Positions 14,067 to 30,961 of a stretch of DNA of 64,000 nucleotides are shown piece by piece. The position numbers and the translations under genes were made by a program. Every line of letters begins with the position of its first letter. Within the stretch, counting starts at the first letter, position 1. Source of the DNA: Candidatus Tumulicola sp. (GTDB taxonomy: Bacteria; Vulcanimicrobiota; Vulcanimicrobiia; Vulcanimicrobiales; Vulcanimicrobiaceae); the NCBI GenBank assembly GCA_036490475.1, contig DASXDT010000006.1, positions 62,001-126,000 of the forward strand, given 5' to 3'. The notes beneath the pieces were generated by a model. It worked only from the letters and a program-made list of their open reading frames with translations. It ran no database searches and was not told where the DNA came from.

Positions 14067-14095
14067 ACTATATCACAGCCGAATCTCGGGTTCAA
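14067..14095 (-). promoter_or_regulatory. Promoter of rho
   Basis: On the minus strand TTGAAC (14095-14090) and TATAGT (14072-14067) are separated by exactly 17 nt, a near-consensus housekeeping promoter. It overlaps the last codon of the glycosylase gene, giving a leader of about 105 nt before the first possible rho start. Such a leader fits rho autoregulation in other bacteria, but that is inference. Confidence 0.75.
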
Positions 14096-14664
14096 GGTCG
14101 AATCGATTTGCGTGGGCCGCTCACGTACGGATTACCAGCTTCATAATAGCGCAGCGGCCGCGACGCGGCGCGTGTAATGCCGATGCGGGGGCTAACGCGC
14201 ACGCGCGACGGACGAAGCGGTTGACCGGCCGACAGCCATAAGGCCGCATCGGTCAACAGATTGACGCCGTCTAAAGAGCGGTCGATCGCCAACGCAGCGC
14301 ACAAACGGCCCGGCCCCCGGCAAACATCTGCCGCCGACGCCCCGGGCCGGAGTTGCAACATCATGTCGTGCCCGATGACCGGCTCTAATGCTCGCACTAA
14401 AACGCCGGCGCCCTCGCCTTCCGCTTCGCCTGAAACGTTGAAGCAGAACGACGTGCCGTAAATTTGGTACACATACGAACGATGTGGGGGCCCGAATAGG
14501 GTGGCGTTGCGCGGCGTCGGCCCGATGAACCCGTGGCACGCAGGATCACCTAAGAGATAGGCTTCGGTTTCAACGATTCGTCCGGCCACAATCTCGGATC
14601 CAACTTTGCGGACGACGTATCTTCCTAAGAGCGCGCGTGCCAGCGCACGCGTTTCTTCCGGCAG
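14092..14664 (-). CDS. mpg: 3-methyladenine DNA glycosylase (AAG/MPG family)
   Basis: This monofunctional glycosylase removes alkylated and deaminated purines. Motifs: ALARALLGRYVV, GRIVETEAYLLGDPACH with the catalytic Glu, RNATLFGPPHRSYVYQIYG, the VLVRALEP strand and GPGRLCAALAI. From GTG 14589 the product would lack the conserved first strand, so translation must start upstream. In that frame no ATG, GTG or TTG exists before a TAA at about 14721. A CTG at 14664 lies 8 nt after GAGG (14676-14673) and gives a normal 190-residue protein; CTG 14712 is less likely. It follows the RNase H-like gene under the SOS-type promoter. Confidence 0.9.
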   Translation of the reverse strand: MPEETRALARALLGRYVVRKVGSEIVAGRIVETEAYLLGDPACHGFIGPTPRNATLFGPPHRSYVYQIYGTSFCFNVSGEAEGEGAGVLVRALEPVIGHDMMLQLRPGASAADVCRGPGRLCAALAIDRSLDGVNLLTDAALWLSAGQPLRPSRVRVSPRIGITRAASRPLRYYEAGNPYVSGPRKSIRP

Positions 14665-14704
14665 TTCGCCCGCCTCGAGCCGGCGGAAGTCCGCTGAGAA
14701 TGCG

Positions 14705-15130
14705 TCAGGCAGCGGCGTTTAGAGCGACTTCAGCTCGCGCCCGTTGTGTGAGATCGTTCTCGATGGCTTCCACGATATCGAAATCGCCCAGCTGGTTCAG
14801 CGCACATCGCAAGTGGACGTATGGCATCACGAGACTTGCCGGTACGTCACGGTGCCCGCCGAGATCTGCAATCAAGACAGGATCGTCGACCGCAAAACGC
14901 ACGCGTTCGACCTTCCAACCGCGCAATGCGCGCGCGATCGCCGTTAGTGCAGCATAGCCGACGGCGCGCGATTCGGAACCGCGGGACTGCACGCTGAATG
15001 GAACGCGCATCACCCGGCTGCGCCCCGCGAGCGCGACATCGGCGTAAGCCACACCCGTACCGTGCGAGCCGGCCGCAAAGCCGATCTCTGCCGTTACCCA
15101 GTCCGGAGTCTCATTTCGTGCTGTTCGCAT
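14705..15130 (-). CDS. RNase H-like fold protein, catalytic residues not conserved
   Basis: A 141-residue cytoplasmic protein. The order of elements resembles the RNase HI/reverse-transcriptase-like family: a first strand with a GSHGTGVAYADV turn, a helix ESRAVGYAALTAIARALRGW in place of the usual acidic xAExxAL helix, a strand VRFAVDDPVLIADLGG that keeps an Asp, and a final helix with END. The first Asp and the helix Glu are not evident, so it may bind rather than cut nucleic acid. ATG 15130 is chosen because it lies about 10 nt after the predicted transcription start of the LexA-type promoter. The fold assignment is tentative. Confidence 0.65.
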   Translation of the reverse strand: MRTARNETPDWVTAEIGFAAGSHGTGVAYADVALAGRSRVMRVPFSVQSRGSESRAVGYAALTAIARALRGWKVERVRFAVDDPVLIADLGGHRDVPASLVMPYVHLRCALNQLGDFDIVEAIENDLTQRARAEVALNAAA

Positions 15131-15146
15131 GATGATTCTATACCCA

Positions 15147-15175
15147 ATTATATGCGAACATATGTTCGGAGTCAA
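15147..15175 (-). promoter_or_regulatory. SOS-type promoter with LexA box in the spacer
   Basis: Minus strand: TTGACT (15175-15170), 17-nt spacer, TATAAT (15152-15147). The spacer contains the perfect 14-bp palindrome CGAACATATGTTCG (15155-15168), matching the CGAAC-N4-GTTCG LexA/DinR box of Firmicutes, Actinobacteria and related phyla. LexA bound there would block RNA polymerase. It drives the RNase H-like gene and mpg. The predicted 5' leader is only about 10 nt. Confidence 0.85.
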
Positions 15176-29846: not shown

Positions 29847-30961
29847 AACTTCTCCAGCACGCCGGCAAAGGCGTCCGCAAAGGCTTCTCGCATCGGCGGC
29901 GTTCCCGCACTGACGCGCACGAAACGGTCTAGCGGCGGCAAACCCGGCTTTCGAATCCAAACGCCGCGTTCGAGCAACCGCGCGACAACCGCATTCGCGC
30001 GTTCGACGGTTTCGAGGTCGAAGCAAACGAAGTTGGTGCGCGACTCTATATACCCCAAACCGAGGCGTCGCGCCAGCGCGTAGTAATCGGCGCGCGCGGC
30101 GGCGGTTTGCTCCAACACCCAGCGATGGAACGTTGCGTCGTGCAGCGACGCGAGCGCGCCGATCTGCGCGTTGCGATTGACGCCGTAGTGTAAGCGGATC
30201 TTCTGAAAAATGCTCGCGTTGCGCTCGGATGCGAGCGCGTATCCGATTCGAGCGCCGGCCATCCCGTAGGCTTTCGAAAATGTGCGCAAACGCACGATTC
30301 GATCGTCGATCTCCGGACCCAGCAGTTCGTCCGCGTCCACGAAATCCGCGTACGCTTCGTCGAGCAGCAACAACGTTTCCGCAGGTAACGCTTGAGCGAA
30401 CCGCGCCATCGTTTCGCGGCCGTGAAAACGGCCTCCGGGATTATCCGGGTTCGCGCAATACACCAGCGACGGCACGCGCGTTGCCGCCAGATCTAATAGC
30501 GCGTCGAGGTCGACCGTGCCGTCGGCGCGATAGTCGACGGACGCGATCGTTCCGCCGTAACCCGTCACGTGATATGCGAACGTCGGATACGTCCCGCGCG
30601 TCGCGACGGCGACGCCGCCCGCACCGACGAAGGCGCGTACGGCCAGGCCCATTACGTCATCGATGCCCGCGCCGACCAGCACTTGCGAAGGACGGCAACG
30701 GTGTTTAGCGGCCAGCGCATCGCGCAGATCCAGCGACTCGGGGTCGCCGTACCAGCTGAGGCGCGGTAACTCGGCGGTCATCGCTGCAAGCGCACCCGAT
30801 GAAATTCCAAACGAACTCTCGTTCGCGCCGAGACGCACGACCTCGGTGCGGCCCAGCGACCGCATCAGTTCTTCGGGGCCGACGAACGGCGTCGTCGGTG
30901 GAATCGCCTCGACGGCGGCGGTGGGGCGCGGCATGGGCCGCTGGGTTTGGCGCACGTTCAT
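29843..30961 (-). CDS. hisC: Histidinol-phosphate aminotransferase family protein
   Basis: PLP-dependent class II aminotransferase, fold type I. Visible: RLGANESSFG, NPDNPGGRFHGRE, LLLDEAYADF and the PLP lysine motif RTFSKAYGMAGARIGYA near residue 235, with RVSAGTPPMREAF at the end. About 372 residues. ATG 30961 is preferred over TTG 30982 because the latter overlaps moeA. No other his genes are nearby, so an aromatic or other amino-acid transaminase is possible. Confidence 0.88.
   Translation of the reverse strand: MNVRQTQRPMPRPTAAVEAIPPTTPFVGPEELMRSLGRTEVVRLGANESSFGISSGALAAMTAELPRLSWYGDPESLDLRDALAAKHRCRPSQVLVGAGIDDVMGLAVRAFVGAGGVAVATRGTYPTFAYHVTGYGGTIASVDYRADGTVDLDALLDLAATRVPSLVYCANPDNPGGRFHGRETMARFAQALPAETLLLLDEAYADFVDADELLGPEIDDRIVRLRTFSKAYGMAGARIGYALASERNASIFQKIRLHYGVNRNAQIGALASLHDATFHRWVLEQTAAARADYYALARRLGLGYIESRTNFVCFDLETVERANAVVARLLERGVWIRKPGLPPLDRFVRVSAGTPPMREAFADAFAGVLEKL

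Follow-up and report, generated by a model that had tools for sequence, protein, structure and literature searches.

The window—the whole 64,000-nucleotide stretch of DNA that was analysed—contains a two-gene operon whose promoter carries a LexA-type palindrome between its −35 and −10 hexamers. We read this operon as LexA-repressed and damage-inducible, with its conserved product, P1, predicted to be a pseudo-enzyme of RNase HI fold that would serve as an accessory factor at damaged DNA (probability about 0.6). LexA binding, induction by damage, nucleic-acid binding by P1, and a role for it at damaged DNA are what we infer from sequence comparison and structural modelling. A wider proposal falls somewhat below even odds: P1 may found a family, as yet unnamed, of RNase HI-fold proteins that have lost catalysis, and may have become a core SOS gene within a single class of the Vulcanimicrobiota. 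On this proposal it would sense or clamp RNA/DNA hybrids, abasic sites, or stalled forks, and the glycosylase gene would have joined the operon or been separated from it in the course of evolution.

The initial annotation had described a LexA-type palindrome within TTGACT-N17-TATAAT, and all of these elements were found on the minus strand, in the order promoter with box, P1, methylpurine-DNA glycosylase (MPG) (Table 1).

Table 1. Promoter elements and genes of the operon, in window coordinates
Feature	Position	Strand	Basis
−35 hexamer TTGACT	15170..15175	−	sequence
LexA box CGAACATATGTTCG in promoter spacer	15155..15168	−	sequence; orthologous loci
−10 hexamer TATAAT	15147..15152	−	sequence; spacer to TTGACT of 17 bp
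P1, 141 aa, predicted RNase HI fold without catalytic acids	14705..15130	−	ATG start at 15130
Methylpurine-DNA glycosylase (MPG/AAG)	~14092..14712	−	PF02245; start uncertain, CTG 14712–14710 assumed

Distribution, predicted fold, and active site of P1

Homologues of P1 occur in 105 of the 149 genomes of the phylum, and the matches listed all fall in f1, f2, or f3 (the window's family, its order, and its class, respectively), with none in other classes. A profile scan of genome contigs with a tighter P1 alignment returned 28 named loci; the window's P1 sequence (P0001) alone found no match in such a scan. Plasmids, phages, and viral contigs yielded no homologue, and PHROGs and PADLOC gave one marginal match each (E about 0.006–0.01); a phage, plasmid, or defence assignment for P1 was rejected on these results. 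A strict partnership between P1 and ImuA is likewise ruled out by two genomes, both ~98% complete, in which P1 is present without an ImuA-level match (G027 and G036). One f1 genome of 1.9 Mb and 96% completeness (G022) keeps LexA and is without P1, MPG, and a clear ImuA match; its damage-response genes may have disappeared as a group.

Structure prediction, as had been suggested earlier for the 141-residue protein, gave an RNase HI fold: the AlphaFold2 model, built with 29 family members, has a pLDDT of 90.3 and a pTM of 0.85. Foldseek against the PDB placed 4e19 (E 4.5e-7), 3hst, and Escherichia coli RNase HI at probability 1.00, and the top 50 matches listed were RNase HI structures throughout, plus an HIV RNase H domain. 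At the level of sequence, the resemblance is faint. RVT_3 was weakly matched by 5/24 family members (best E 6.2e-5), and a PDB profile search with P1 listed 3hst first at E 0.39; the window's P1 had no Pfam match, and nothing better than E 0.03 was obtained against NCBIfam.

The column of the catalytic Glu (E48 in E. coli numbering) is mostly G, A, S, T, or I across 86 aligned orthologues and acidic in none, and the Asp-70 column is acidic in 30 of the 86. The first catalytic Asp (D10) is absent from the window's P1 and from all f2 and f3 members, and the D134 region has no reliable alignment to RNase HI. A profile–profile comparison of P1 and the local RNase HI gave a weak overall match and served for local residue register only; of its twelve template rows, one (L233) is a wrong frame. 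A separate, intact RNase HI with DGG, AEW, and DSEL motifs is encoded in the same genome, and this, together with the active-site columns, rules out P1 as an ordinary RNase HI. Because the catalytic acids are missing and the genome has this separate enzyme, P1 is best read as a pseudo-enzyme with an RNase HI fold, in agreement with the initial annotation, which had recognised an RNase H-fold protein without catalytic acids. Net charge, at 0 for the window's P1 and about +4 as the family mean, gives no direct sign of nucleic-acid binding.

A pseudo-enzyme under LexA control need not be a repair accessory: P1 might instead be a checkpoint effector, for example an inhibitor of division or replication in SOS. 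Known SOS division inhibitors are small, lineage-specific proteins, and P1 is kept without MPG, and in G027 and G036 without ImuA, as would be expected of a stand-alone effector. However, P1 is predicted to have an RNase HI fold and its model is a single soluble α/β domain; to our knowledge, there is no division inhibitor with an RNase H fold, and a checkpoint role is regarded as unlikely.

Less probable again is nuclease activity of P1 through a rearranged active site, in which D/E83 would work together with further conserved residues (Y104, C109, and N112). Position 83 is acidic in 86/86 P1 sequences and lies at or beside the RNase HI Asp-70 position, the alignment register there being uncertain by one residue, and Y104 and C109 are invariant across the 86 orthologues. 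Two-metal catalysis, however, requires several acids, and beyond the catalytic Glu column, which is never acidic, a second universal acid is absent.

The glycosylase gene and its association with P1

The second gene had been annotated as an alkyl-purine glycosylase, and its product does match PF02245 over positions 5–181 of the 181-position profile (E 1.3e-58; 197.8 bits against a cut-off of 27). The product would be expected to act as a glycosylase on 3-methyladenine and related bases. No ATG, GTG, or TTG precedes the conserved N-terminus in the MPG frame, and the only candidate start seen is the assumed CTG, which overlaps the P1 stop; this CTG is the likely start, unless the sequence contains an error. 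A usual start codon is found in that region in 70 of 79 relatives.

At 76 of 97 orthologous loci (75 by script, plus G120 by hand, its two frames overlapping), P1 is followed directly by MPG on the same strand, and the two genes often overlap or stand a few bases apart. Most of f1, as well as f2, has MPG under the P1 promoter. In f3, the glycosyltransferase is followed by the box, P1, a block of 1–4 genes on the opposite strand, MPG, and rho (rho having been tested in one f3 locus), and the window has the same order minus the block. By eye, the f3 block (L224, L225, L227, L228, and L229) encodes permease-like, lipoprotein, and prepilin-like proteins, as well as a ~1000-aa protein of carboxypeptidase-regulatory appearance.

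These arrangements could be taken to mean that P1 serves MPG alone, as a subunit that loads the glycosylase or handles abasic sites, given the shared operon in most loci and the position of both genes, in f3 too, between the same glycosyltransferase and rho. Yet f3 has MPG outside the P1 operon, and boxed P1 is retained in genus g24 and G011, where the genomes tested gave no match to MPG; G011, G024, G093, and G095 all keep the boxed gene without any such match, which makes a dedicated partnership about as improbable as an active nuclease. In G030 and G007, MPG is located elsewhere in the genome. An obligate P1–MPG module is ruled out by the occurrence of boxed P1 without adjacent MPG in f3, g24, and G011. 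The earlier proposal that the pair may be a repair module is therefore weakened, and is not upheld for a fixed pair, with MPG absent or several kb away in some families and genera. Since P1 keeps its box without MPG, the conserved unit is the box plus P1, and P1 is the core SOS gene; the lack of MPG beside P1 in f3 and some f1 genera also implies that the role of P1 is not glycosylase-specific.

The LexA box and the genes that share it

Motif counts contribute little to the case for the box. The exact CGAACN4GTTCG motif is seen twice in the window (0.38 expected from a first-order Markov model), the other match, at 30812, being treated as chance, and 26 times in the 3.3-Mb genome (~20 expected from the same model), where a reversed-pattern control gave 5 matches; the loose count is weak evidence and uninformative alone. 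The 14-mer CGAACATATGTTCG is seen twice in the genome against an expectation of 0.02, and its second copy (C6:758921, L022) lies upstream of the gene for a protein of 127 aa that matches nothing in Pfam.

The box is considered real not because of these counts but because it is conserved in orthologous promoters. A perfect CGAACN4GTTCG box is found at 96 of 97 orthologous P1 loci (94 by script, plus G099 and G120 by hand, among the genomes with the locus read), in three families of one class, and the remaining locus, in a relative with a single 3.5-Mb contig (G009), has CGCACATACGTTCG, with one mismatch. The 97 loci together amount to 327 kb and contain 96 perfect motifs, every one of which is a P1 box. 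In 92 of 94 orthologous promoters, TTGA[CTA] stands directly 5′ of the box, and nearly all have a TA-starting hexamer 15–19 bp from this element; at its centre, the box shows a strong R-T-A-Y pattern across orthologues. The initial annotation had named lack of conservation upstream of the orthologues as grounds for abandoning the palindrome, and the reverse was found. A chance match or another regulator's site, which the ~20 loose motifs expected per genome might allow, is very improbable given the 96/97 conservation at the promoter—which rules out a chance palindrome—and the same motif type before lexA, imuA, dnaE2, and ftsY-recA.

In the window, 16 bases separate the end of TATAAT from the P1 start codon (15130–15152), and in relatives box-to-start distances of 26–46 bases recur. 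Both distances suggest that the leader of the P1 transcript is very short or nearly absent.

A lexA gene, which the earlier annotation had proposed looking for, is encoded in the genome. Its product has both the LexA DNA-binding domain (PF01726, E 3.1e-23) and the S24 peptidase domain (PF00717, E 2.7e-37) and matches solved LexA repressors across almost its whole length. The promoter of this lexA carries two near-consensus boxes, CGAACAGACGTTTG and CGAACGTATGTTTG, and at least two such sites are present in the lexA promoters of 29 of 30 relatives, the exception being a genome outside the class. Perfect boxes also stand 5′ of imuA, dnaE2, and ftsY-recA-recX in the window's own genome, where imuA was assigned by eye as a RecA-like protein beside dnaE2 with no Pfam match. 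The stricter 16-mer TCGAACRTAYGTTCGA occurs 0–5 times per relative genome and not at all in the control reading; among 30 such sites examined, 21 are upstream of imuA, six of P1, and one of dnaE2. The strongest boxes of the relatives thus stand before imuA, P1, or dnaE2, and the sharing of these strong boxes by imuA and P1 places P1 in the regulatory group of the mutasome. Taken as a reading of the sequence, SOS control of the operon by LexA is strongly supported.

Three further loci of the genome bear on the extent of the putative regulon. recA lies behind ftsY, with a recX-like frame after it (C5:417456-419336, L177), the sole perfect box being 5′ of ftsY, which would bring ftsY under SOS control. 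A perfect LexA-type box ~90 bp 5′ of a TnsA-like endonuclease gene (C6:766425, L023; PF08722, E 3.2e-15) hints that a Tn7-like element may be under SOS control at that locus. A strong box, TCGAACATACGTTCGA, is located 5′ of a tyrosine recombinase gene (C5:414326, L007; PF00589, E 4.4e-15).

The type of box had at first seemed at odds with a diderm envelope. GAAC-N4-GTTC is the LexA site of Gram-positives (Firmicutes and Actinobacteria), and the sites of cyanobacteria, which are diderm, are cited as closely related to it (PMC3323433); box and envelope are therefore not in conflict. The named relatives belong to Candidatus Eremiobacterota/Vulcanimicrobiota, placed by NCBI in the Bacillati, and a box of this type is expected in a diderm of that phylum because of this placement. 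In the cultivated Vulcanimicrobium alpinum, the cell wall is Gram-negative and includes an outer membrane (PMC9758169). Bacillati placement and the cyanobacterial precedent together remove the supposed tension.

Proposed mechanism and relation to known systems

Under the general logic of the SOS response, LexA at a promoter blocks transcription until its RecA-triggered self-cleavage (PMC3765255). In the operon described here, LexA bound to the box in the promoter spacer would block RNA polymerase, and RecA on single-stranded DNA would trigger self-cleavage of LexA, thereby allowing the operon to be transcribed. P1 would then most likely assist at damaged or stalled DNA as an accessory that binds nucleic acid without catalysis, alongside the ImuA/ImuB/DnaE2 mutasome, which has the same boxes. 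For most members of the window's family, this transcript would also supply MPG for the removal of alkylated purines.

No description of a P1-like SOS gene or of a LexA regulon in this phylum was found in the open-access literature, nor any paper that brings LexA and Eremiobacterota together. As far as that literature shows, this is the first outline found of a LexA regulon in the Vulcanimicrobiota/Eremiobacterota, and it picks out one conserved uncharacterised gene, P1, as a class-wide core SOS gene beside the mutasome. A cultivated member of the phylum exists (PMC9758169), making the reading of P1 and LexA directly testable.

Among the closest known systems is the LexA/RecA SOS regulon of Bacillus subtilis and Mycobacterium tuberculosis, with the related cyanobacterial sites: the box is of the same type and lies in the promoter spacer, lexA itself is preceded by boxes, and recA and the mutasome genes are boxed. 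The regulon outlined here differs in its class-wide SOS gene P1, in the joining of MPG through P1, and in the position of recA behind ftsY. The window's MPG shares the full-length PF02245 domain with MPG/AAG enzymes but differs in having a LexA box by way of the P1 promoter; no LexA-controlled MPG of the PF02245 family was found in the open-access literature. With RNase HI (E. coli RnhA, Halobacterium 4e19, and the N-terminal domain of Rv2228c, 3hst), P1 shares the fold, the order of structural elements, and a weak sequence similarity in the second half. It lacks the conserved D-E-D-D set, however, has ~13–20% identity in the structural matches, and coexists with a complete, separate RNase HI.

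ImuA and ImuB, inactive paralogues of RecA and of a Y-family polymerase, respectively, within the SOS mutasome (PMC3765255), offer a functional parallel: like them, P1 appears to be an inactive paralogue of a nucleic-acid enzyme with a LexA box, and imuA and P1 have the same strong boxes. P1 differs from both in its unrelated fold, its different operon, and its persistence in genomes with no ImuA-level match. Should P1 prove to bind nucleic acid but not cleave it, the damage response would have recruited a further inactive paralogue, after ImuA and ImuB.
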